Below are positions 3,404-15,942 of a DNA stretch of 20,074 nt, piece by piece (the first letter of the stretch is position 1; every line of letters begins with the position of its first letter). A program made the position numbers and the translations under genes. The stretch lies in IMG/VR virus record IMGVR_UViG_3300027659_000281, positions 1-20,074 of that record; one strand, 5' to 3'. Source of the stretch: a virus. A model generated the notes under the pieces. It saw nothing but the letters and a program-made list of their open reading frames with translations, was not told the origin of the DNA and made no database searches.

Positions 3404-4057
3404 TTAATTTTTGATCTTATTGAGTTCTATACAAGTTTTACATTTTCCACATTCTTTAAATATATCCTTATCACTAATAATAGGAGTCCTACAACTCCAA
3501 GTCATGTTTCTTAGTTCTGTAGGAATAGTATTATATATCTCTGCTTTTGTTAAATGTTCAACAGGATATACTTTTTCAACATTTGGAACAAATAGTTTCA
3601 ATATTTGTGTTCCCCTAATAGCTCTTTCTTCTATATCTGCACCCATATCAGATTTTGTACGACCTACAGCAATTTTTTTAATATTAGGTAAACACTTACA
3701 AATAGAAGCCGCAATAAAATTGTATATATCACTATCAAACATAAAATTTTGATTAATAACTATAGCATCCGCCGTTTCTGTTAAATACGAATAAAAAGGA
3801 TATTCATGATAACTTTGACTATATTTAACCTTGTATGATTGAGATACATACGAAAGAATATTTCTAACAGACCGCTGCTCCGCTTCTGCTCTTTGTTCTT
3901 TATTCAGAAGATATAAATGATGTAGATGTATTTTGTTCTCTTTGTTCTGCAATAATTGCCATAAAGCCCCAGTAGAATCTAATCCACCAGAAAACATCAG
4001 TAATATATTTGAATCATCAATATCTATATTTTGTTTTTTTAATATATCTTCTATCAT
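3404..4057 (-). CDS. QueC-like PP-loop ATPase
   Basis: 217 residues. The ATP-binding PP-loop SGGLDST lies at 23-29, and a C-terminal zinc site is formed by Cys189 (TWSC), Cys203, Cys206 and Cys209 (CGKCKTC). This arrangement is that of QueC, which makes 7-cyano-7-deazaguanine (preQ0) for queuosine or for 7-deazaguanine in DNA. The spacing between the first two cysteines (13 residues) is wider than I recall for E. coli QueC, so a related amidating PP-loop enzyme is possible. No queD, queE, folE or transglycosylase gene is seen in this window. No strong ribosome site precedes the ATG at 4057. Confidence 0.75.
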   Translation of the reverse strand: MIEDILKKQNIDIDDSNILLMFSGGLDSTGALWQLLQNKENKIHLHHLYLLNKEQRAEAEQRSVRNILSYVSQSYKVKYSQSYHEYPFYSYLTETADAIVINQNFMFDSDIYNFIAASICKCLPNIKKIAVGRTKSDMGADIEERAIRGTQILKLFVPNVEKVYPVEHLTKAEIYNTIPTELRNMTWSCRTPIISDKDIFKECGKCKTCIELNKIKN

Positions 4058-4120
4058 TAATTATATTCTTTCATTCATCTTTAGTAATATTATATCTAAA
4101 CTCTAATTATGTGATAATAA

Positions 4121-4807
4121 CTATACAAACTTTTCTAAAGTTATTATACCATCTTTTATCCCTAAATAAGTGCAGGTTTTTTCTGTCCAACATCCACTAT
4201 TAGCATACCATACAGAATGGTTTTTATCTAGTAAAGGATAATGAGTATGACCCAAACAAACACAATGAATTTGTTTACCTATTGAATAGTTTCTGGATTT
4301 TTCCATCATATTCTCATTACATCTTAAATAAGTCTTTGAGCGATGTTTAATAAATTTGGGCAAAAATCTTTTATCAAGTCTCTGAATTGTTCTATAAATA
4401 AAATCTGCTACTCTTGTAGTATTAGGATATTTATATATAAAATCGTCAAATTGATCTCCATGCAAGCACAAGAAGTTTTTATCTCCACTAGAAAAGATAT
4501 ACTCATTCTTAAAATCTAATCCTATTAGATGAGATATGTTTTCAGCATCTCCATCATGGTTCCCTCTTATCCAGACTATTTCTACATATTTACTCATTCG
4601 TCGTAATAAAGACAATATTTTCCAATGATTTTTCTTTATTCTACGAAAATCTAAGTTATCAAAAAAATCCCCATTAATAATCAATTTATTTGTTTTAGTA
4701 TAAACTAATCCTAAAAAAGCATATAATTGTTTGCTCTCACAAACACTACTTCCTAAATGAGTATCGCTTATTATTATTGCATCCAGCAATTTTGAATTTT
4801 TGGTCAT
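4121..4807 (-). CDS. Calcineurin-like metallophosphoesterase (LpxH-like)
   Basis: 228 residues with all metal-binding motifs: SDTHLGS (14-20), NGDFFDN (45-51), RGNHD (81-85), HGDQFD (116-121) and GHTH (186-189). The set and spacing resemble UDP-2,3-diacylglucosamine pyrophosphatases and their relatives, which cleave UDP-linked lipid A precursors in Gram-negative bacteria. Many phage phosphoesterases of this fold instead act on nucleotides, so the substrate is open. It is the first gene of the block 4807-2695. It starts just after an inverted repeat (4819-4850), with only a weak GAG-type ribosome site. Confidence 0.82.
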   Translation of the reverse strand: MTKNSKLLDAIIISDTHLGSSVCESKQLYAFLGLVYTKTNKLIINGDFFDNLDFRRIKKNHWKILSLLRRMSKYVEIVWIRGNHDGDAENISHLIGLDFKNEYIFSSGDKNFLCLHGDQFDDFIYKYPNTTRVADFIYRTIQRLDKRFLPKFIKHRSKTYLRCNENMMEKSRNYSIGKQIHCVCLGHTHYPLLDKNHSVWYANSGCWTEKTCTYLGIKDGIITLEKFV

Positions 4808-4886: not shown

Positions 4887-5180
4887 TCATTTCTTTTCCC
4901 CAATAGTTTCATATTCTTGTATCCAAGCATTATAAACATCTTTAGCCTGTTGATGAGTATCACAAGAATAAATTATCCTAAATTTATGAAGATCAACTTC
5001 CCTAACAATATCGTTACCGTCTATTTCTTCATTAAACTGAGGAAGCCCCAATAGTTCTATCCAAGTTTTTTGTTTTATTGTAGATTCTCCAGACAAAAGC
5101 ATATCTTCTTCTAGTTCGTTTGGAATATATAGTGGGGGCCATCTCCATGAACGAGATGAACTAAAATCTTGATTATTCAT
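4887..5180 (-). CDS. Hypothetical protein, 97 aa, last gene of the chain
   Basis: Unrecognised. It has a polar N-terminus with SRSWRWPPLYIP, then a mixed alpha/beta body (KFRIIYSCDTHQQAKDVYNAW) and ends ETIGEKK, like tails in the chain. Its ATG at 5180 overlaps the TGA of the upstream gene (ATGA), and its ribosome site GGAG is part of that gene's last codons (Leu-Glu-His). It ends the run of overlapping genes; the inverted repeat at 4819-4850 follows. Confidence 0.75.
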   Translation of the reverse strand: MNNQDFSSSRSWRWPPLYIPNELEEDMLLSGESTIKQKTWIELLGLPQFNEEIDGNDIVREVDLHKFRIIYSCDTHQQAKDVYNAWIQEYETIGEKK

Positions 5181-5380
5181 TGATTATGCTCCAAATACTT
5201 ATATATAAAATCGGCCAGACCTTTTAATTCTTCCCTACTAATTGGTGGATGGGCATAATTTTTAGTACAGCCTAACATTAAGCCATAATTATCAGTAAAC
5301 ATCATGCCTTTATGAAATAGATGAAGATTAAAAGAGTCTGCTCTAAATGTACTCTTGTTTGATAAATTTTTATTTTCCAT
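5177..5380 (-). CDS. LADFIY-motif small protein (paralog 1)
   Basis: 67 residues from the ATG at 5380, chosen because GGGGAG lies upstream and the start forms TAATG with the preceding 29-aa ORF. The C-terminus SREELKGLADFIYKYLEHN carries the shared motif of this family. The N-terminal part is beta-like (FNLHLFHKGMMFTDNYGLML) and ends in a Pro-Pro turn before the motif, as in the copy at 8056-8274. The family is not known to me. From the sequence, a variable sheet followed by a conserved C-terminal helix is the likely build. No membrane segment or signal peptide. Confidence 0.78.
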   Translation of the reverse strand: MENKNLSNKSTFRADSFNLHLFHKGMMFTDNYGLMLGCTKNYAHPPISREELKGLADFIYKYLEHNQ

Positions 5381-5469
5381 TAAAACAACTCCCCATATCC
5401 ATTCCACCAATCATAAATACGAATACTAGCCATATAACCAAGAATAGCAAACAATACAAGACCAGCCAC
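5380..5469 (-). CDS. 29-aa membrane peptide, GTG start
   Basis: A tiny ORF from a GTG at 5469 to a TAA overlapping the next ATG. It begins with a hydrophobic helix (AGLVLFAILGYMASI) followed by RIYDWWNGYGELF. Evidence that it is real: it fits exactly between two genes with TAGTG and TAATG overlaps, has GGAG eight bases before the GTG, and its end contains the GGGGAG ribosome site of the next gene. Function unknown; probably inner membrane. Confidence 0.62.
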   Translation of the reverse strand: MAGLVLFAILGYMASIRIYDWWNGYGELF

Positions 5470-5678
5470 TAGTTATTCTCCAAATTTTTATTAAGAAAAT
5501 CGGCTAAACCCTTTAACTTATCTTTAGTCACTTGAAAGGCAACACTCTTATCATTTCGATCATTATAAATCGAAACATAACAAGAATTTCCATTCGTTAC
5601 CATTTCCACACTAATATCCTTATCAATATCATAATGAGCAGGATTAACTGTTTGCATATAATAATCTCTATCAACCAT
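5469..5678 (-). CDS. LADF-motif small protein (paralog 2)
   Basis: 69 residues. The C-terminal helix TKDKLKGLADFLNKNLENN belongs to the family, here with FLN in place of FIY. The N-terminal part includes beta-like ISVEMVTNGNSCYVSIYND. The final codons Leu-Glu-Asn-Asn contain GGAGAA, the ribosome site of the 29-aa ORF. Start and stop overlap the neighbours. Adjacent to paralog 3, which shares TKD-[KE]-L-[KR]-G-L, so the two probably arose by tandem duplication. Confidence 0.78.
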   Translation of the reverse strand: MVDRDYYMQTVNPAHYDIDKDISVEMVTNGNSCYVSIYNDRNDKSVAFQVTKDKLKGLADFLNKNLENN

Positions 5679-5869
5679 TAGTTATTTTCTCCTAGAAAGC
5701 TTTTAATAAAGTTCCCCAATCCCCTTAACTCATCCTTGGTCATTCTAACAGCTAGATATTCCCAACTAATAACATTACTAACATCAAACTTGACCATATT
5801 TTCCGACAGCATTTCAATATCAAATCGGGTAACATCAGCCTTATAAAAGTCTTTCATCACAATACTCAT
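5678..5869 (-). CDS. LADF-related small protein (paralog 3)
   Basis: 63 residues. The C-terminus TKDELRGLGNFIKSFLGENN is a diverged copy of the family motif (GLGNFI for GLADFI). The N-terminal half includes FDIEMLSENMVKFDVSNV, similar in pattern to the DIDKDISVEMV stretch of paralog 2. The start at 5869 follows GGAGAATCTTTA. The last codons (Gly-Glu-Asn-Asn) are close to the next start. Function unknown. Confidence 0.75.
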   Translation of the reverse strand: MSIVMKDFYKADVTRFDIEMLSENMVKFDVSNVISWEYLAVRMTKDELRGLGNFIKSFLGENN

Positions 5870-5900
5870 TAAAGATTCTCCAAATTTTTGATTCTGTTAG

Positions 5901-6176
5901 TTATACAACAACGCCAGATCTTCCAAGAGCAATTCTTACTCCCAACTTCTTATCATAATTATCATTTCTGCTACAAAGAGCAACTCCCTCAAAATGAAAT
6001 CCATTAGGACTATCAATAATGATATGAGTTGATCCACCCTTAGTATCTGGCTCAAGTGGATAGGAGCCAATAATAACTGAAGGATTAGCAGTTTGCCACT
6101 TAAATCTGCCCATATAAAGTCGATTATGAAGAACCTTTACCTTAAAACCTTTATTACGAAGTTCTTGAACGGTCAT
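5901..6176 (-). CDS. Conserved-looking hypothetical protein, 91 aa
   Basis: Basic, beta-rich protein: VKVLHNRLYMGRFKW near the N-terminus, GGSTHIIIDSPNGFHFEGVALCSRNDNYDKK in the middle, and GVRIALGR near the C-terminus. I recall phage hypotheticals with the order LHNRLY / GVAxCSxxDNxxxKLGVRIALGR, but no function. The start has a GGAG site encoded by the end of the upstream ORF (6176-6328). A 31-base untranslated gap separates it from paralog 3. Confidence 0.78.
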   Translation of the reverse strand: MTVQELRNKGFKVKVLHNRLYMGRFKWQTANPSVIIGSYPLEPDTKGGSTHIIIDSPNGFHFEGVALCSRNDNYDKKLGVRIALGRSGVVV

Positions 6177-6328
6177 TATTTATTCTCCAAAACTATTTGT
6201 TTAAAAATATTGATTTGTACTAAAACATCCCACAAACTATATCCATAGCCCTCTTGCAATCTCAAATCTTCTCCATAAAAAATATTATAACAATATCTGT
6301 TATCATAACGATAGATGCTAATCTTCAT
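6176..6328 (-). CDS. Small protein, 50 aa, paired with the ORF at 6868
   Basis: Starts at 6328 with an ATGA overlap of the upstream stop and ends in TAATG with the next gene. The N-terminus MKISIYRYDNRYCYNIFYGED aligns with MSISILYKNGEYRWELYDGPD of the ORF at 6868-7023, and both have a later D-[VA]-[LF]-x-Q-I, so they look like paralogs of about 50 residues. The tail Leu-Glu-Asn-Lys encodes the next ribosome site. Function unknown. Confidence 0.68.
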   Translation of the reverse strand: MKISIYRYDNRYCYNIFYGEDLRLQEGYGYSLWDVLVQINIFKQIVLENK

Positions 6329-6600
6329 TTATTTGTTTCTTTAAATTTGAATTGACCATATAAAGACTCAAACATATGATTAACCACTATGCCAGCAATA
6401 TTACTAATGCTATTTTTTGGATCAGCCATTACCCCAATTAACAAATGAAATTCGTGTTTATGAAGGGGGTCCAACTGAATTAGTAATGATCCATTCCTCA
6501 TTCTGTTAAAGTGAAAATCTTTATACTCTGAACAGATATACTTTAATACTCTTGCGTGATATTTCTTATAATCTGCTTTACTATCAAATTTTTTAAACAT
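6325..6600 (-). CDS. Hypothetical protein, 91 aa
   Basis: Unrecognised. A basic helical N-terminus (KKFDSKADYKKYHARVLKYICSEY) is followed by a strand-rich part (GSLLIQLDPLHKHEFHLLIGVM) and a helical C-terminus. The start at 6600 overlaps the end of the upstream gene by 8 bases. No catalytic motif, signal peptide or membrane segment is visible. Confidence 0.75.
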   Translation of the reverse strand: MFKKFDSKADYKKYHARVLKYICSEYKDFHFNRMRNGSLLIQLDPLHKHEFHLLIGVMADPKNSISNIAGIVVNHMFESLYGQFKFKETNK

Positions 6601-6868
6601 ACTTCAAATCTCTAACATGATCCTTACTAGCCTCTCTTACTGTAGGAAGATAGTAATACTCATAAATATCTTGCCATGAAGGAAACTCATAAAATGGTTC
6701 GCCCTCATTTATACACAATCCACTATTGTCATAGACATCGTAAAAACTTACTTTACGATTATCGTAATCTTCCATACTATCATAACAAGCAAAAACAGTA
6801 TAAATGCCATAATCTACATTTGGTTCATAGATATACGACGCCACACTCTCTGTCGTGCTTTTACCCAT
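6593..6868 (-). CDS. Acidic hypothetical protein, 91 aa
   Basis: Tyr- and Asp-rich: PNVDYGIYTVFACYDSMEDYD, VYDNSGLCINEGEPFYEFPSWQDIYEYYYL. No family recognised. The segment INEGEPFYEFPSWQDIYEYY looks like a surface that could mimic nucleic acid or bind a partner, but this is only composition. The ATG at 6868 is in a TAATG overlap with the 51-aa ORF upstream; AGGATG, part of that gene's end, serves as ribosome site. Confidence 0.74.
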   Translation of the reverse strand: MGKSTTESVASYIYEPNVDYGIYTVFACYDSMEDYDNRKVSFYDVYDNSGLCINEGEPFYEFPSWQDIYEYYYLPTVREASKDHVRDLKYV

Positions 6869-7023
6869 TAGTAATTCATCCTATTTTTGAGTTGAGAGAT
6901 AAGAATTTGCTCAAAAGCATCACCAAGATTAATGGCTATGCCAGTAAAATGATCTATACCGTCTGGCCCATCATATAACTCCCAGCGATATTCGCCATTC
7001 TTATAAAGAATAGAGATACTCAT
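6868..7023 (-). CDS. Small protein, 51 aa, paired with the ORF at 6176
   Basis: An ORF filling the gap between two genes with TAATG overlaps on both sides. The N-terminus ISILYKNGEYRWELYDGPDG is a beta-hairpin-like sequence related to the ORF at 6176-6328. The C-terminus GDAFEQILISQLKNRMN is probably helical. The ribosome site GGGAGAA lies in the last codons of the upstream gene (Trp-Glu-Asn). Function unknown. Confidence 0.68.
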   Translation of the reverse strand: MSISILYKNGEYRWELYDGPDGIDHFTGIAINLGDAFEQILISQLKNRMNY

Positions 7024-7226
7024 TAGGTATTCTCCCATAATGGATATTGTTTTTCGTTATTATCTAATTCATCGGCCAATTCTGCCACTTGTCTTTCGCT
7101 CCACCCGGCAAAATAACCCCTCATAAATATTTGAGTTAGTTCATTACGATCTTTTTCACGCTCATAATATTTTTGCACAGCTTCTATCCAAGCTTTTGTT
7201 GCTAATTGAAGTGGGTTTTCGGTCAT
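7023..7226 (-). CDS. Helical hypothetical protein, 67 aa
   Basis: Unrecognised, mostly charged helices: AWIEAVQKYYEREKDRNELTQ and a middle MRGYFAGWSERQVAELADEL. The A-G-W-S/x-R/E pattern is seen in small phage proteins of unknown role. Start at 7226 with GGAGAAAAATA before it. The end (PLWENT) overlaps the next gene start as TAATG. Confidence 0.74.
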   Translation of the reverse strand: MTENPLQLATKAWIEAVQKYYEREKDRNELTQIFMRGYFAGWSERQVAELADELDNNEKQYPLWENT

Positions 7227-7243
7227 TATTTTTCTCCTATAGT

Positions 7244-7399
7244 CTAAATTTCTTTGCGATCAGTTATTTTAACCACATAAGTGGCACGATCTTCATTAAG
7301 ACTATTTTCAATATTCATCCAAATAGTATCTATATCAGACTGAGTATTAGCTCTTATCTCAATAGTAATAATATAATTTTTTGTAATTTGATCAATCAT
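7244..7399 (-). CDS. Small hypothetical protein, 51 aa
   Basis: Starts at 7399 in TAATG overlap with the upstream LADFIY protein and ends in a TAG at 7244, 18 bases before the next gene. It alternates strand (NYIITIEIRANT), helix (DIDTIWMNIENSLNED) and strand (ATYVVKIT), a compact beta-alpha-beta arrangement. No known family. The GGGGAAAAA site upstream supports translation. Confidence 0.68.
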   Translation of the reverse strand: MIDQITKNYIITIEIRANTQSDIDTIWMNIENSLNEDRATYVVKITDRKEI

Positions 7400-7596
7400 T
7401 ATTTTTCCCCAATAGTCTCATAAATAAAATCGGCCAACGCCTTTAGTTCAAACTCATTAGCATTAGGATAAACATAGCCCCTTGTTGGAGCCAAAACAAT
7501 GTTGTATGGTTTTCCTGTAAAACTCTTTTGATAATCATCATTCTTATTAATAAAGAACCTGAACTGATTAGCATTAAAGACTGTGCCTGTGGTCAT
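7399..7596 (-). CDS. LADFIY-motif small protein (paralog 4)
   Basis: 65 residues. The C-terminal helix NEFELKALADFIYETIGEK is a close family member. The N-terminal part (FRFFINKNDDYQKSFTGKP) differs in sequence but keeps the strand-turn-strand look of the other copies. The terminal Ile-Gly-Glu-Lys codons (GGGGAAAAA) form the ribosome site of the next gene. The start at 7596 is in the chain, preceded by the 30-aa ORF. Confidence 0.78.
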   Translation of the reverse strand: MTTGTVFNANQFRFFINKNDDYQKSFTGKPYNIVLAPTRGYVYPNANEFELKALADFIYETIGEK

Positions 7597-7599
7597 TAT

Positions 7600-7692
7600 T
7601 TATTTTCCAAATATCCTATCTATAAAATGTAAACACTGCATAAATGCAATAAAATAAAGTAGATAATACTCCCATAATGGAATAGTTATCAT
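7600..7692 (-). CDS. 30-aa hydrophobic peptide
   Basis: A tiny ORF between 7692 (TAATG overlap with the upstream stop) and 7600. Mostly hydrophobic and aromatic: PLWEYYLLYFIAFMQCLHFI, then DRIFGK. It probably spans or lies on the membrane. Its last codons supply GGAAAATAA, a ribosome site for paralog 4. The exact fit between neighbours is the main evidence; function unknown. Confidence 0.6.
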   Translation of the reverse strand: MITIPLWEYYLLYFIAFMQCLHFIDRIFGK

Positions 7693-7901
7693 TATTCGCC
7701 CCAACTATAAACATTAATCATAATAACTTTATCACTAAGTTTTACATTATTCCACACCCAATCAATAGCACCATTTTCGTTTTCGCTTGGAGTTCCACCA
7801 GTACAAATTTCTTCTGGAATATCAATAAATTCTGTATGCCAAGTATAATCATCCAGAATAAAAGCGAATTCAACAGTTGTATTTGTAGCAATATTAGTCA
7901 T
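7692..7901 (-). CDS. Acidic hypothetical protein, 69 aa
   Basis: Unrecognised. A strand-rich N-terminus (TVEFAFILDDYTWHTEFIDIP) is followed by a Gly/Pro/Asn-rich loop (TGGTPSENENG) and a C-terminal part with DWVWNNVKLSDKVIMINVYSWGE. No signal peptide or motif known to me. The start at 7901 follows GGAGAAAAATA, encoded by the end of the 52-aa ORF upstream, which it overlaps by 8 bases. Confidence 0.74.
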   Translation of the reverse strand: MTNIATNTTVEFAFILDDYTWHTEFIDIPEEICTGGTPSENENGAIDWVWNNVKLSDKVIMINVYSWGE

Positions 7902-8052
7902 TATTTTTCTCCAAGATTGTTAAAATATCAACAACAATACTCAAAAGATAACTACGTTGATTATGACTCATTGGCCTAAGAATAGGCATTTCATTAGCCT
8001 GTTCATAAACGGTCAAAAAAGTTTGTATAGTCTCTTTAAGTTCGTTACTCAT
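7894..8052 (-). CDS. Helical hypothetical protein, 52 aa
   Basis: Starts at 8052 after GGAGAATAAATA and overlaps the next gene. Two helices are likely: NELKETIQTFLTVYEQANE, then NQRSYLLSIVVDILTILEKN, with a Pro/Met/Ser linker. No match known. The final Leu-Glu-Lys-Asn codons carry the GGAG site for the gene at 7692-7901. Confidence 0.68.
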   Translation of the reverse strand: MSNELKETIQTFLTVYEQANEMPILRPMSHNQRSYLLSIVVDILTILEKNND

Positions 8053-8055
8053 TAT

Positions 8056-8274
8056 TTATTCTCCAACAGTATCATATATAAAATCCGCCAATGCTAGTAA
8101 TTCTTCTTTTGTGGTTGGTGGATTGATTACATTATGCTTCTTGTTTGTTCTAAAGACCATACCATACTCATAACTGGTTAAGTTATCAGAATATCCACCA
8201 AAACGATCACGCTCTATGGCAAGATCAAAATATTCACCATCAAAAATATTCTGTTTAGGTATATAGTTACTCAT
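8056..8274 (-). CDS. LADFIY-motif small protein (paralog 5)
   Basis: 72 residues. The C-terminus TKEELLALADFIYDTVGE is a family member, preceded by NPP as paralog 1 has HPP. The middle holds SYEYGMVFRTN, matching NYGLMLGCTK of paralog 1. The ATG at 8274 overlaps the TGA of the frameshifted tail at 8271-8324, so that tail provides its purine-rich ribosome site. The last codons (Val-Gly-Glu) give GGAGAA for the next gene. Confidence 0.78.
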   Translation of the reverse strand: MSNYIPKQNIFDGEYFDLAIERDRFGGYSDNLTSYEYGMVFRTNKKHNVINPPTTKEELLALADFIYDTVGE

Positions 8275-8324
8275 TTCTTTTCTTCTTCAAGAGTTTTATA
8301 AATAAAATCGGCCAAACCCTTTAT
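8271..8324 (-). pseudogene. Out-of-frame LADFIY tail of the 8321-8563 gene
   Basis: A 17-codon open stretch reading IKGLADFIYKTLEEEKK, then TGA, with no start codon of its own. It is in the -1 frame of the upstream ORF (8321-8563), whose frame ends in ...TRYE-stop exactly here. Joining them by a -1 shift gives RYE-IKGLADFIYK, the family motif without a gap. A loss of one A in GAAATAAAG explains it simply. It retains the junction with the start of paralog 5. Alternatives are programmed frameshifting or a sequencing error. Confidence 0.7.
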
Positions 8325-8563
8325 TCATATCTAGTCTCCCATATAACATCGTTAAAATCTACTAAACCATAATCGCTACATATCATCGGATAATATCCCC
8401 ACAAATAAATAGTCTCACCCCTAGTCCAGCATAACTGATCTGGAATATAAAACCATAATGGAGTATTTTGTTCTAAAGCATACTGTTGACCACAAGGTTT
8501 GTTATTATTGATATAGCTATCCAAAGGAACAGACATTAATAGTAATATATAAACATATTTCAT
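8321..8563 (-). CDS. Probable frameshifted LADFIY-family member, 80 aa
   Basis: 80 residues in its own frame. The N-terminus MKYVYILLLMSVPLDSYINN is hydrophobic, like a short signal peptide or anchor. The rest is Trp/Tyr/Cys-rich (LWFYIPDQLCWTRGETIYLWGYY) and ends SDYGLVDFNDVIWETRYE. The SDYGLV segment lines up with NYGLML and EYGMVF of paralogs 1 and 5, and the missing C-terminal helix follows in the -1 frame (8271-8324). Start at 8563 in ATGA overlap with the upstream ORF. It may still be translated as the 80-aa form. Confidence 0.7.
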   Translation of the reverse strand: MKYVYILLLMSVPLDSYINNNKPCGQQYALEQNTPLWFYIPDQLCWTRGETIYLWGYYPMICSDYGLVDFNDVIWETRYE

Positions 8564-8730
8564 TTATTTTCCTCCAGAATACCATTCAAATATTTAGCCA
8601 AAATCTCCACTTCAACTTCAGTCCAAACATACTCATAGCCATTATCATTACCATGCTCAATATCAAGTTGGTAACTTTCCAGAGAGTCAAGAATTAGGCC
8701 AATTTCATGCTTATCAAGATTAATGTTCAT
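8560..8730 (-). CDS. Small hypothetical protein, 56 aa
   Basis: Found between 8749 and 8563. It begins MNINLDKHEIGLILDSLESY and ends TEVEVEILAKYLNGILEENK. The end resembles the family motif in pattern (E-x-E-I-L-A-x-Y-L) but lacks LADFIY. The N-terminal helix resembles those at 566-751 and 18150-18335 (hydrophobic heptads ending S/W-Y). The last codons (Leu-Glu-Glu-Asn-Lys) contain GGAGGAAA, the site for the next start. Function unknown. Confidence 0.68.
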   Translation of the reverse strand: MNINLDKHEIGLILDSLESYQLDIEHGNDNGYEYVWTEVEVEILAKYLNGILEENK

Positions 8731-8748
8731 TGTTCATCTCTTATTTGA

Positions 8749-8979
8749 TTACCACCCACGAACAATACATTTCATACCGGGATTCATCTCAACACATACA
8801 TGGTTTGTAACAACTGAGATAATTTTCCACCAACAATCGTTTTCAGATAGACCAATATCGGCCAATCGCTTAAACCACTCATCTGCAACATCTTCAAAAC
8901 ACAAAGCATCAATCTTCTCTTTGACGATTGAGTTATTTTGATACTTTTCGCTTTTCCATGAAAGTTCAAACTTGGTCAT
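8749..8979 (-). CDS. Hypothetical protein, 76 aa
   Basis: I choose the ATG at 8979 (MTKFELSW), which has GGAGAAAATA directly before it; a longer frame would need TTG. A helical part KIDALCFEDVADEWFKRLADI is followed by NDCWWKIISVVTNHVCVEMNPG and a basic end. No family known. It overlaps the upstream paralog 6 by 14 bases. Confidence 0.74.
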   Translation of the reverse strand: MTKFELSWKSEKYQNNSIVKEKIDALCFEDVADEWFKRLADIGLSENDCWWKIISVVTNHVCVEMNPGMKCIVRGW

Positions 8980-9223
8980 TATTTTCTCCAATAGATTTAT
9001 AAATAAAATCGGCCATTCCCTTTAGAGTTTCCCTATTCATATCTAATATATAATCATTAAGAATATCACCATTATCCCAAAAGTCCACCCTAAACATCTC
9101 CCCATTCTTTAGAGAGGTTTTATCTATGATTAAAAATAGATCATGATCAATTTGGTATTGATTATTGGATTGATGACCCTTTTTGATATTAGATTTATAG
9201 TTCTTGTTTGATTTAGTATTCAT
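8966..9223 (-). CDS. LADFIY-motif small protein (paralog 6)
   Basis: 85 residues, the longest member. A Lys/Asn/Ser-rich N-terminus (TKSNKNYKSNIKKGHQSNN) is followed by a strand-rich middle (DLFLIIDKTSLKNGEMFRVDFWDNG) and the motif NRETLKGMADFIYKSIGENN (M for L). The GGAG of the Ile-Gly-Glu-Asn codons is the ribosome site for the overlapping gene at 8749-8979. Function unknown. Second gene after promoter P5. Confidence 0.77.
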   Translation of the reverse strand: MNTKSNKNYKSNIKKGHQSNNQYQIDHDLFLIIDKTSLKNGEMFRVDFWDNGDILNDYILDMNRETLKGMADFIYKSIGENNDQV

Positions 9224-9228
9224 TTGTT

Positions 9229-9396
9229 TTAATCTATACTTTGATTATAAGTATGAGTAGGCTTGATTTCTCGTAAACGATTCAAAATAATGGTCAAGTT
9301 ATTACGGTCAACGCTCAATTTTTCATGCAAAGTTTGATTAATAACACTCTTGAGAATAGCAATTTCTTTATCGGTAAACAAAACATTTTTATACAT
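9229..9396 (-). CDS. Small helical protein, first gene of the tiny-gene chain
   Basis: 55 residues from the ATG at 9396, with AAGGTG six bases before it, about 47 bases after the -10 of promoter P5. Sequence: FTDKEIAILKSVINQTLHEK, then DRNNLTIILNRLREIK, a two-helix protein with heptad-like leucines. Similar in pattern to other small helical ORFs of the window (18150-18335). No function known. Confidence 0.7.
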   Translation of the reverse strand: MYKNVLFTDKEIAILKSVINQTLHEKLSVDRNNLTIILNRLREIKPTHTYNQSID

Positions 9397-9442: not shown

Positions 9443-9471
9443 AGTATATCACAACGCATGGTGGCTGTCAA
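9443..9471 (-). promoter_or_regulatory. sigma70-type promoter P5, heads the tiny-gene chain
   Basis: Minus strand: TTGACA at 9471-9466, a 17-base spacer, TATACT at 9448-9443 with extended -10 TGA. It starts 8 bases past the 3' end of the tmRNA gene and faces the 22-gene chain 9396-4887. The 12-base context TGTGATATACTA is identical in promoter P7 at 12772. One of the best-matching promoters in the window. Confidence 0.85.
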
Positions 9472-9478
9472 TATTGAA

Positions 9479-9831
9479 TGGAGGCGGGGGAAGTCGAATC
9501 CCCGTCCTGTGATAATTCTAATTACATCTTCTACAAGTTTATTTTATTCATAAAATTTTGGATATGACTAAAGAATAAAAAACATTCATCAATCCTAGTG
9601 ACACATCTTAGCCTGTTAACCGTCACCACTAACAGGAGCCAAAGGATTTTACGACAATCTTTTGGACGCTACCTTTATCGCTTCCTAAGATTGTTGCTGT
9701 TATTTAATTAAGCAGCAAGGGCTAACTGATTTACGCCAGTTAAGCGTTTAATCTGGTTTTAAAGTAGCCACCAGATCAACTACTACTTGCTAATATAATC
9801 TTCCCTATCCAGTCGATACCGTTACGCCCCC
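9479..9831 (-). ncRNA. ssrA: tmRNA (transfer-messenger RNA)
   Basis: A complete one-piece tmRNA, 353 bases. The 5' end GGGGGCG (9831-9825) pairs with CGCCTCC near the 3' end, with a G-U wobble at the third pair (G3-U70), the alanine identity element. The T-arm is a GGGGA stem, TTCGACT loop and TCCCC stem, and A follows as discriminator; CCA is not encoded. The GGTATCGACTGG near the 5' end is the usual tmRNA 5' domain. The tag frame at 9737-9708 reads GGC GTA AAT CAG TTA GCC CTT GCT GCT TAA, that is GVNQLALAA, with TAACT just before the resume codon, like TAGTC in E. coli. CCTGTTA/TAACAGG and AACAATCTT/AAGATTGT pairs fit the later pseudoknot and helix region. It rescues stalled ribosomes and tags the product for proteolysis. 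Confidence 0.93.
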
Positions 9832-13537: not shown

Positions 13538-14449
13538 TTAAGAAAGTGAGGTTAAAAGTTCATTATATTCTGCAATTGCTAAATCCTTAGCTTTTAATTC
13601 CATGTCCACATCAAATTCTAAACCATAATTATCAAAAGTATTTTGAGGATAGTCAGCATGAGCGCGAGGATTATTACCTACCCTACTTTCACTATAATGA
13701 AATAGGCATCTGGTTTGCCAAGTATCATAACACATATTAATCGCTTCACGTTCTGTGAGATTATTAGGATGACACTTATGATGCAAGTAATCAAAACAGA
13801 TTGGAATACGAGTTATTGGATGAAAAATATCCACTAATTCTTTAACACTCCAGCAGTTTAGTTTATCGTCATTTTCAATGGTTAGTCTAGCTTGACAATT
13901 TTCATCTAGTTTTTTAAAGTTTGCATAAAATCTATGAGAAATTTCTTCTCTTGTACCATTATTGTTATGTACATGAAGATTCATAGGTGATCTAGTATCA
14001 GCCGGAAGTCCAATTCTGTCAAAGAAACTGCTGTAGAAGTTGAGTTCTGTGATTGTTTTCTCAACAACTTTTCCGTTGAGGCTTGACAAACTGTTAAATT
14101 CACTAGGATGAGCAGAAACACGAACATTAGTAGAGGAAATACTCTGTGCAATATTATCAAACTCATCTTGAATAGAGTCGTAGTTAGGTAAATCTTCTAG
14201 ATTAACATTTGCTGCGTCATAAGTAATTAAAGGGAAAATATCACTACTAACACGATAAACATAATTATTTTCCGCACAAAACTGTATGGTTTTATCTGTA
14301 ACCATTAGATTATTTTGAATTCTTGATCCAAGAATTTCCAATGCTTCTTCTCTAGGCAAAGAATTAAATCTTTTGAAAGTCATGGTTTGATGACCAAAAC
14401 CCTGCTCTTTGAGTTTAAGAGAAATACAGCAAAGACCGAACCTATTCAT
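13538..14449 (-). CDS. uvsE: UV-damage endonuclease (UvsE/UvdE)
   Basis: 303 residues, the full length of the bacterial enzyme. This TIM-barrel metal nuclease cuts 5' of UV photoproducts and starts alternative excision repair. Motifs in order: RVSSDIFPL (66-74), VSAHPSEF (111-118), NLHVHNNNG (157-165), TIENDD (190-195), CFDYLHHKCHP (218-228), HYSESR (251-256) and AHADY (263-267); the His, Glu and Asp metal ligands of the family are all present. Start at 14449 follows AGGAG, 20 bases after P4. Phages may carry it to protect genomes or virions damaged by sunlight, in line with a surface-water habitat (inference). Confidence 0.93.
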   Translation of the reverse strand: MNRFGLCCISLKLKEQGFGHQTMTFKRFNSLPREEALEILGSRIQNNLMVTDKTIQFCAENNYVYRVSSDIFPLITYDAANVNLEDLPNYDSIQDEFDNIAQSISSTNVRVSAHPSEFNSLSSLNGKVVEKTITELNFYSSFFDRIGLPADTRSPMNLHVHNNNGTREEISHRFYANFKKLDENCQARLTIENDDKLNCWSVKELVDIFHPITRIPICFDYLHHKCHPNNLTEREAINMCYDTWQTRCLFHYSESRVGNNPRAHADYPQNTFDNYGLEFDVDMELKAKDLAIAEYNELLTSLS

Positions 14450-15116: not shown

Positions 15117-15313
15117 TATACTAAAATTCCTTTATCGTCTACTACAGAAAAAATCTTGACAACTTTTAGTTTTGGCTCAAAATAATCATGAAAATTTTTA
15201 ATAGCCTGTTCTTTGGACGAAGCAAAAAAAGAATGATGTAAAATTAGTATCTGTTTATCTTCTCCAGAAGTTTCTTTAAGTTGTCCAGTTACAGTGAACT
15301 CTTTCTCTACCAT
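15116..15313 (-). CDS. Small beta-rich protein, 65 aa
   Basis: Strand-helix-strand pattern: KEFTVTGQLKETSGEDKQILIL, ASSKEQAIKNFHDYF, then KLKVVKIFSVVD. This resembles a small alpha/beta fold I have seen in phage hypotheticals near thyX genes, without a known role. GGAGG before the start at 15313, which overlaps the thyX stop by 7 bases, so it is coupled to thyX. Confidence 0.74.
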   Translation of the reverse strand: MVEKEFTVTGQLKETSGEDKQILILHHSFFASSKEQAIKNFHDYFEPKLKVVKIFSVVDDKGILV

Positions 15314-15942
15314 GACAAAGCCTCCGATATAATGGGAAATTGAGTTTTAAAAATTTCTTTAGCTTCATTAGCAATAATCATATGTTCTTTTTGAGTTCCA
15401 TGAGCAGACCTTAGATTAATATAATGTATCCACGATCTGATTGTGCCATTCATATAAAGTTTTGTTGGAGTGGCTAATGGCAATATAAATCTAGCACATT
15501 CTTTGGCTATTCCATCAGCTATCATACCATCATAAAGAGCCTTGCTTTTAGCAAAATGTTCACGGATTTTAGTATTCCATTTAACTCTTGTTTCGTCGGT
15601 TATATCATCTATACTATTTTGTCTATTCTTAGTATCTTGGCGACGTAATTCAAATACTGGAATTTCTTCTGATAACAATGTGGTATCCGCATATCTTTGT
15701 GAAAACTCTTGAAAATTGAAAGACCTATGACGTAAAATTTGTGCAGCTATACCTCTGGTTGTATTTATCTCAAGACTCATACTAGCCATTTCAAATATAG
15801 ACCAGTGCTGATGATCTATACAATATTTCAATAGTTTAGCATAGTTATCACTGTCTTGATTACTAGGATTTGAAACCCTAGCACAATAAGCCATCAATTT
15901 TTCTGCATCTGGAGTAACACTTACCAATTTCACTGAACTCAT
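15307..15942 (-). CDS. thyX: Flavin-dependent thymidylate synthase ThyX
   Basis: 211 residues. The signature RHR-x7-S is present: RHRSFNFQEFSQRY (71-84), with N76 and Q78 where many bacterial enzymes have Ser and Asn. ARVSN near residue 21 and RSWIHYINLR (in the C-terminal third) complete the FAD and dUMP sites. It methylates dUMP to dTMP with methylene-tetrahydrofolate and NADPH, supplying T for an AT-rich phage genome. The start is at 15942, after AGGAGAG, overlapping the upstream gene by 4 bases. Strong call. Confidence 0.95.
   Translation of the reverse strand: MSSVKLVSVTPDAEKLMAYCARVSNPSNQDSDNYAKLLKYCIDHQHWSIFEMASMSLEINTTRGIAAQILRHRSFNFQEFSQRYADTTLLSEEIPVFELRRQDTKNRQNSIDDITDETRVKWNTKIREHFAKSKALYDGMIADGIAKECARFILPLATPTKLYMNGTIRSWIHYINLRSAHGTQKEHMIIANEAKEIFKTQFPIISEALSW

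Follow-up and report, generated by a model that had tools for sequence, protein, structure and literature searches.

In a large tailed phage, tiny genes of a putative early operon share a coding 3' end that looks largely swapped

Results and Discussion

Six tiny genes in the viral DNA analysed here (the window, i.e. the whole 20,074-nt stretch of IMG/VR record IMGVR_UViG_3300027659_000281) end in a common C-terminal helix of the ELKGLADFIY type, and the conservation extends to the DNA: an element of about 45-60 nt holds the codons of the helix and, after them, the Shine-Dalgarno sequence of the next gene, which often overlaps. In large part this shared tail resembles an exchanged gene end rather than the relic of a single duplicated gene, since in a group of large uncultured phages many unrelated tiny genes end in the same DNA stretch and gene order differs among close relatives at these and other junctions. 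We consider it likely that the genes form part of an early operon that exchanges tiny genes end-to-start, in which the tail is a reusable coding 3' end kept for both the helix and the ribosome-binding site.

The gene chain and its promoter

The tail genes are interspersed with unrelated tiny genes, as the preliminary description had it; the 22 genes counted there are about 21 in our gene call.

4887..9396, minus strand: chain of about 21 tiny genes, mostly overlapping or abutting
9443..9471, minus strand: early-type promoter TTGACA-N17-TATACT, heading the chain
4887..5180, minus strand: unrelated gene whose end, YETIGEKK, corresponds to the Shine-Dalgarno-encoding end of the tail alone
7227..7243, minus strand: 17-nt leader ACTATAGGAGAAAAATA preceding gene 7023-7226, which has just the final, Shine-Dalgarno portion of a tail in it

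Shine-Dalgarno sequences of the GGAG/GGGG type are found at about 12 starts of the chain. The same promoter hexamers precede the first chain gene, at -70 to -75, in 7/7 phages compared, in sequence that has otherwise diverged. Promoter-like sites number 22 against 26.9 in shuffles, the head of the chain being the sole strong one, and terminator-like sites number 2 against 1.6 expected. A T4-type late promoter (TATAAATA) within the tail was rejected on sequence inspection, as it is lost in the FIYETIGEK variant. We infer that the chain is an early operon, presumably early in timing as well, of a large tailed phage. One strong sigma-70-type promoter would transcribe the whole chain, and its tiny genes, presumably coupled in translation, would be exchanged as cassettes.

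Tail genes and their N-terminal types

All six genes named in the preliminary description are present as minus-strand open reading frames, at the coordinates and with the ends reported. A tail profile was built from 52 tails, none of them from a phage of the window's own near-identical group. Of the 371 six-frame segments of the window, it picks out these six and no others. The next-best segment, the 4124 phosphoesterase, has E=0.0024, and the best value in 50 shuffled sets is 0.076.

5177..5410, minus strand: tail gene, type A, E=1.4e-13; probably starting at ATG 5380 rather than TTG 5410
5469..5678, minus strand: tail gene, type B, E=2.5e-10; modelled
5678..5869, minus strand: tail gene, type C, E=8.1e-8; divergent tail RGLGNFIKSFL
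7399..7596, minus strand: tail gene, type A, E=3.0e-9
8056..8274, minus strand: tail gene, type A, E=3.6e-9; modelled
8966..9223, minus strand: tail gene, type D, E=1.1e-10

The N-terminal halves had been described as different, and this holds in a larger sample: once the tail is removed, the 72 members that were collected fall into four mutually non-alignable types and single chimeras. All four types occur among the six window genes, the types of 5177 and 5678 being assigned via their near-identical orthologues. Tails are also grafted on other N-termini (G006_24821, G008_125802, L089_500).

The tail as a DNA element

The DNA of the tail was scored by nhmmer with the external tails, and this 46-nt repeat has seven copies in the chain, one of which is untranslated in the tail frame and had been missed before.

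5193..5238, minus strand: tail DNA copy, translated, E=1.9e-12
5482..5528, minus strand: tail DNA copy, translated, E=3.7e-11
5694..5740, minus strand: tail DNA copy, translated, divergent, E=1.5e-4
7412..7450, minus strand: tail DNA copy, translated, E=8.8e-12
8066..8111, minus strand: tail DNA copy, translated, E=1.8e-4
8278..8334 (tail copy 8278-8323), minus strand: seventh copy, untranslated in the tail frame, E=1.5e-10
8991..9036, minus strand: tail DNA copy, translated, E=3.2e-11

The seventh copy forms the leader between gene 8321-8563, which ends at its TAA, and gene 8056-8274. It is also a rearrangement junction relative to contig G003, with a 29-nt stretch in common. Six separate copies of this leader type follow the stop codons of other genes (window/G003, L088 4177, L088 4476, G007 143752, L097 2533 and L090 1047), and in L073 the tail is grafted in frame onto a truncated MNINL gene. 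Most tails carry an out-of-frame TAA, TAG or TGA over Leu-Lys.

The tail favours rare codons, and does so across the N-terminal types. Its Ala codon is GCC in 66/71 cases (background 14%; by type, A 21/25, B 13/13 and C 10/11), its Leu codon TTG in 48/74 (14%) and its Arg codon AGG in 27/42 (9%), and outside the tails LAD is encoded by TTGGCCGAT in 1/63 occurrences. Some N-terminal positions of type B also retain rare codons, so shared ancestry accounts for part of this signal.

It is improbable, in our judgement, that the tail is kept as such at the DNA or RNA level, e.g. as a site for a phage protein, TTGGCCGATTTTAT, or for a dedicated recombinase, with the helix being incidental. The fixation of GCC and TTG against the background would fit such a role. 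So would the early promoters of these phages, many of which have a GCCGAT-type motif within or close to them (CCGATA in 40/96 promoter spacers against 0.3 expected). However, the bases that follow the core differ, the promoter motif going on with A (GCCGATA in 42/46) and the tail with T. Moreover, neither an inverted repeat nor a stable RNA fold (z-scores 2.24, -1.14, 0.45 and 1.16) was seen at the tails, and the helix residues survive synonymous change. An RNA hairpin hiding the Shine-Dalgarno sequence was ruled out for the same lack of a stable fold.

Convergence on a common helix-plus-Shine-Dalgarno ending (an amphipathic helix and a Leu-Glu-Asn-Lys stop encoded by TTGGAGAATAAATAATG) is the least credible of the explanations. 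The final 5-6 residues (LENK, IGEK) do correspond to the translated Shine-Dalgarno sequence and are found on unrelated genes, but ELKGLADFIY, which lies upstream of it, has rare codons in common, and its DNA matches the tails of other phages with E-values down to 1e-12.

Duplication or exchange

The preliminary description suggested repeated duplication with fast divergence of the N-terminal sheet. In that case one would expect two tails of the same N-terminal type to resemble each other more closely than tails of different types do. The third-codon-position identity of the tails is, however, 0.584 within types and 0.578 between them (permutation p=0.29), i.e. the synonymous sites do not follow type. 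Unrelated genes precede the untranslated tail copies, close orthologues change their 3' end and next gene inside the tail, tails occur on other N-termini, and types A, B, C and D are not convincingly alignable once the tail is removed. We therefore regard it as unlikely that the genes are one paralogous family in which the helix was conserved for its function, e.g. docking to one partner, and the nucleotide likeness is a by-product. The helix itself is nevertheless constrained at the protein level, as detailed below, and the three subgroups of type A are mutually alignable, which both speak for such a family. Concerted evolution within a genome was also rejected, as tails of different types are less alike in one contig (0.698) than between phage groups (0.729).

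Predicted structure and selection on the protein

The shared end had been described as a helix behind a beta-sheet, and a C-terminal helix in this position is indeed predicted in models of two non-alignable types, A and B, in which the order of strands and helix is identical, as a paralogous family would have it. The helix would pack on the sheet, judging from these models. Among orthologous tail genes dN/dS is 0.15-0.54, and protein-level (purifying) selection on them is supported by these comparisons. The Leu, Gly and Ile codons of the tail (Leu0, Gly2 and Ile7) vary synonymously while the residue is kept, and the amino-acid similarity of the tails follows the N-terminal type weakly (p=0.002); the two observations together indicate that the protein-level constraint is real. 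Both the dN/dS values and the synonymous variation speak for the paralogous-family explanation.

With Foldseek, the type B model resembles small uncharacterised phage proteins in which strands are followed by a helix (best viral E=0.021) and Pur-alpha repeat III (E=0.22, TM about 0.5). Since there is no hit at E<0.001, we take these as resemblance only. A PDB hit to cytochrome c555 covers 15 helix residues only and was judged to be due to chance.

Gene-order breaks between related phages

The contigs compared are metagenome assemblies. Among 22 dereplicated rearrangement junctions between near-identical phages, 21 lie at -60 to +10 of a start codon, 6 of these in a tail, and the stretches common to both sides include TAAAGGGTTTGGCCGATTTTATTTATAAA. 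Breakpoints coincide with gene boundaries in 327/507 cases against 115 expected. The orthologues of gene 8966 are near-identical until GATTTTATTTATAAA, after which they run into three distinct 3' ends, and the genes that follow differ as well. Tail junctions are broken more often than others (28/46 vs 157/484, p=2.7e-4), but the fractions are 0.72 and 0.62 (p=0.22) once the count is restricted to junctions covered by homologous sequence, so these figures do not establish the tail as a hotspot. Ordinary junctions have overlaps of 12-16 nt, which may just reflect the need of each junction for a Shine-Dalgarno sequence. We note that the position of the breakpoints is also expected from random joining followed by selection for intact genes.

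In the exchange that we favour, a cassette would begin at one start codon and end just ahead of the following one, and the crossover zone would be the gene junction, i.e. the Shine-Dalgarno sequence and, in tail genes, about 40 nt coding for the helix (R/K)EELKGLADFIY. As the same tail stretch ends many genes, an N-terminal half can gain another 3' end and next gene: recombination within the tail would join it to these while preserving the frame, the helix and the ribosome-binding site. An unrelated gene joined out of frame could stop at the out-of-frame TAA, TAG or TGA, in which case the tail would stay as a leader. The tail would thus have spread at least partly via 3'-end exchange among different small beta-sheet proteins, and we propose that it is kept because the helix completes the fold and its end is the ribosome-binding site of the next gene. 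Homologous recombination is the presumed mechanism.

A further-reaching version is that the tail is a dual-use cassette joint selected as such, which completes the fold of different small proteins, halts joined genes that come in out of frame, contributes the ribosome-binding site for the gene after it and provides homology for reassortment behind a fixed promoter. We offer this only tentatively and on balance doubt it; if true, it would mean that a lineage of large phages reassorts its early accessory genes one by one.

Comparison with known systems

Phage mosaicism at gene borders is an old question, in which homologous recombination at short conserved boundary sequences is weighed against illegitimate recombination, i.e. 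random joining with selection (PMC3233612). As in the boundary-sequence model, module borders are gene borders here, short conserved sequences lie at the boundaries of unrelated genes, and rearrangement breakpoints fall on gene boundaries with such sequences. In contrast to that model, the boundary is partly coding, being the C-terminal helix of the upstream protein plus the next ribosome-binding site. Since this lineage offers near-identical relatives and many fresh junctions, and its boundary sequence is part of a protein, both models of mosaicism can be put to a direct test in it.

In T4-type phages, the PeSL promoter/stem-loop cassettes (Arbiol 2010, Comeau 2014, via PMC4503421) are likewise a repeated element between early genes, for which a role in the modular shuffling of an accessory region is proposed; compared with the cassettes as described there, the tail is coding and has neither an above-chance promoter nor a stable stem-loop. 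The SAS/ESAS of cluster K mycobacteriophages, which their authors suggest as possible targets of homologous recombination, are similar as repeated Shine-Dalgarno-like sequences before many small genes (PMC3203893). Here the consensus is another one and the upstream coding sequence takes in about 45 nt of the repeat; the consensus GGGATAGGAGCCC, which SAS/ESAS have at starts, gives 3 weak matches (chance mean 1.2), none of them at a tail, and no 17-bp imperfect inverted repeats of the kind next to SAS/ESAS were found at the tails. Nor was a palindromic site seen at the tails, as the structured attC sites of an integron-like cassette array would require. The ORFanage of cyanophage S-PM2, another large phage, is also made up of arrayed orphan genes, with gains and losses and synteny seldom kept, and the portion of PMC4503421 consulted makes no mention of shared gene ends. 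The present case is a warning that ORFan genes whose proteins have a conserved tail in common are not necessarily a single diverged family.

Distribution and family searches

The tails have homologues beyond chance, in about 47 IMG/VR loci; no relative was found at that sensitivity in the bacterial and archaeal genomes searched. A copy on a 222-aa protein (L094/L120) was excluded as a probable assembly chimera, the contig having 61% GC and an AT-rich end. Gene 566-787 was rejected as an extra member (E=2 with the external tail profile, 38% in hhalign); only the strand-plus-helix layout is common to it and a second family (VEIHHNP type).

The statement that no named family has this motif stands, as Pfam, PHROGs and PADLOC give no convincing match: the six window proteins reach E=0.035 at best against Pfam and E=0.016 against PHROGs, and PADLOC gives no hit at 0.1. 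Two type B relatives match PHROG 33806, which has no annotated function, with a best E of 9.2e-4.

The tail genes of the window and their relatives

The six reading frames with a shared C-terminal tail, reported in the preliminary description, are present at 5177, 5469, 5678, 7399, 8056 and 8966. Against circularity, a tail profile was derived exclusively from other phages (52 tails) and run against every one of the 371 six-frame segments in the window. It retrieved exactly these six genes (E=1.4e-13 to 8.1e-8); the best non-member segment had E=0.0024, and the best value over 50 shuffled sets was E=0.076. The genes had been placed in an overlapping chain at 4887-9396: overlap or abutment is found for most genes of this chain, whereas the proposed count of 22 becomes about 21 with our heuristic gene calls. 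It had also been suggested that the proteins belong to no named family, and indeed Pfam, PHROGs and PADLOC gave no convincing match for the six; an uncharacterised PHROG is touched by two type B relatives (E=9e-4).

A tail scan found 47 loci in viral contigs and, at its sensitivity, no locus in bacteria and archaea (one genome per species). Iterated profile searches of the retrieved DNA gave 128 ORFs, 1-7 per contig, VEIHHNP-type proteins (a type named by sequence) counted in; the tails were collected via protein search. Tblastn with members of three types gave no significant match in cultured phages.

The N-terminal halves differ, as first described. Without their tails the members form types A (5177, 7399 and 8056), B (5469), C (5678) and D (8966), which have no convincing mutual alignment, and besides these the grouping leaves single chimeras. 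Type A includes two alignable subgroups. In the type A model (pLDDT 78) three strands precede a C-terminal helix, and in the type B model (pLDDT 72, pTM 0.46) the helix comes with four strands; for each of these two types the tail is predicted to form the helix, in agreement with the earlier proposal. Foldseek found no significant neighbour of the models. Orthologues have dN/dS values of 0.15-0.54, which marks the tail genes as real genes.

Gene 566-787 was ruled out as a tail-family member (external tail profile, E=2). It belongs to the VEIHHNP type, another family of these clusters, which has the same layout and only marginal sequence similarity. In a related contig (L089 500-757) a complete VEIHHNP-type protein carries an extra ELKGLADFINNYLENN tail after its own helix.

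The tail as a DNA element

A repeat finder identified a 46-nt repeat with 7 copies within the chain, one more than the tail genes:

8278-8323, seventh tail copy, after the stop of gene 8321-8563 and before the start of gene 8056-8274, untranslated in the tail frame

This copy is matched by DNA profiles of other phages' tails (E=1.5e-10). The tail also stands as a leader after the stop codons of unrelated genes in related contigs (L088, twice, G007, L097, L090 and G003), four leader copies starting directly at the preceding gene's stop codon. In L073 the final portion of the tail is joined in frame to a truncated gene.

Synonymous codon choice is shared by tails of different N-terminal types. 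The Ala codon is GCC in 66/71 tails and the Leu codon TTG in 48/74, as compared to 14% each in long genes; the GCC preference is present within each of types A, B and C taken separately, and LAD outside tails is spelled TTGGCCGAT in just 1/63 cases. An out-of-frame stop lies over the Leu-Lys codons in 57/72 tails. The closing codons (TTGGAG, GGAGAA) double as the Shine-Dalgarno sequence for the gene that follows, which is why LENK/IGEK endings are shared, even by the unrelated gene 4887-5180. At L083 1449-1667 the final codons of a tail gene pass into an early promoter, not a Shine-Dalgarno junction.

Duplication or exchange of 3' ends

The preliminary description had suggested repeated duplication with N-terminal divergence as the origin of the family. 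Descent of the tail with its N-terminal type would make same-type tails more alike at synonymous sites; however, third-position identity is 0.584 within and 0.578 between types (p=0.29), i.e. there is no excess within types. Tail amino acids show a small effect of type (p=0.002). Moreover, orthologues of gene 8966 in four phages agree up to GATTTTATTTATAAA and then have three different 3' ends and different next genes, and the alignments of gene 8056 show a similar switch. The unlinked synonymous sites and the switching 3' ends, taken together, lead us to prefer exchange of 3' ends at gene junctions, which these comparisons favour over duplication with N-terminal divergence. In L100 5001-5108 and G001 71139-71408 an ORF N-terminus is an out-of-frame piece of the MNINL gene (another type named by sequence); these are apparent deletion fusions.

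The contigs compared are metagenome assemblies and the phages sampled are mutually related. Alignment ends between similar contigs lie at -60..+10 of a start codon in 327/507 cases, not all independent, vs 115 expected; so do 21/22 dereplicated rearrangement junctions. Shared stretches at these junctions have medians of 12-18 nt and a maximum of 35 nt, and at one junction the shared stretch is the 29-nt tail core found in the window. This clustering of breaks at gene starts, with shared stretches, is consistent with recombination at boundary sequences. Breaks at gene junctions would, however, also result from selection for intact genes, and among covered junctions those at tails were not clearly hotter than others, so our claim is that exchange occurs at the tail, and not that the tail is a proven hotspot. 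L120 / L094 (IMGVR_UViG_3300005805_002593), with 61% GC and an AT-rich end bearing the tail, is probably a chimeric assembly within the public collection.

Among known kinds of element, the boundary-sequence model of phage mosaicism (PMC3233612) best describes the tail. PeSL cassettes, as described in PMC4503421, require a promoter and a stem-loop, whereas the tail has neither; SAS/ESAS (PMC3203893) have their own consensus and inverted repeats, but at the tail the consensus is not matched and inverted repeats were not found. The new aspect is that one boundary sequence is both a protein helix and the next gene's ribosome-binding site. We know of no described case of this kind from a narrow literature search.

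Source phage and surroundings of the chain

The 20-kb IMG/VR record has a near-identical counterpart in contig G001 (186.5 kb), which codes for terminase large subunit, portal, DNA polymerase, DnaB-like helicase and ligase; judged by this gene content, the source is a large tailed phage. The closest terminases among cultured phages, those of Bacillus phage Slash and Microcystis phage MaeS, share only about 25% identity with that of G001, and the window has no DNA-level similarity to 50,697 phage records.

Two features stand at the head of the chain:

9471-9443, promoter TTGACA-N17-TATACT, head of chain
9476-9831, minus strand, full-length tmRNA (Rfam RF00023, 112.8 bits, E=8.6e-44), immediately ahead of chain

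The promoter hexamers lie 70-75 nt ahead of the first gene in 7/7 aligned phages, in diverged surroundings, and exact copies of the promoter stand before further small operons in accessory regions; this conservation and copying suggest that the chain is transcribed early by the host polymerase. CCGATA is in the spacer of 40/96 TTGACA-N16-18-TATACT promoters of related contigs (0.3 expected; e.g. L081 5276, L064 6634, G008 126773). Chain-head promoters often have the motif upstream of -35, and it looks like an operator common to early promoters.

The tmRNA holds a tag-like reading frame ending in QLALAA. It was missed by ARAGORN, and Rfam detected no tmRNA on matching tiles of seven related contigs. 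Pistol ribozymes adjoin tRNA genes in two related phages (L027 4546-4608, L055 16069-16131). Around the chain (3404-4807, 13538-14449, 15307-15942) there are a QueC-like protein, a phosphoesterase, a PHROG endonuclease, by our own reading resembling a UV-damage endonuclease, and a ThyX that is closest to those of cyanophages (about 70% identity).
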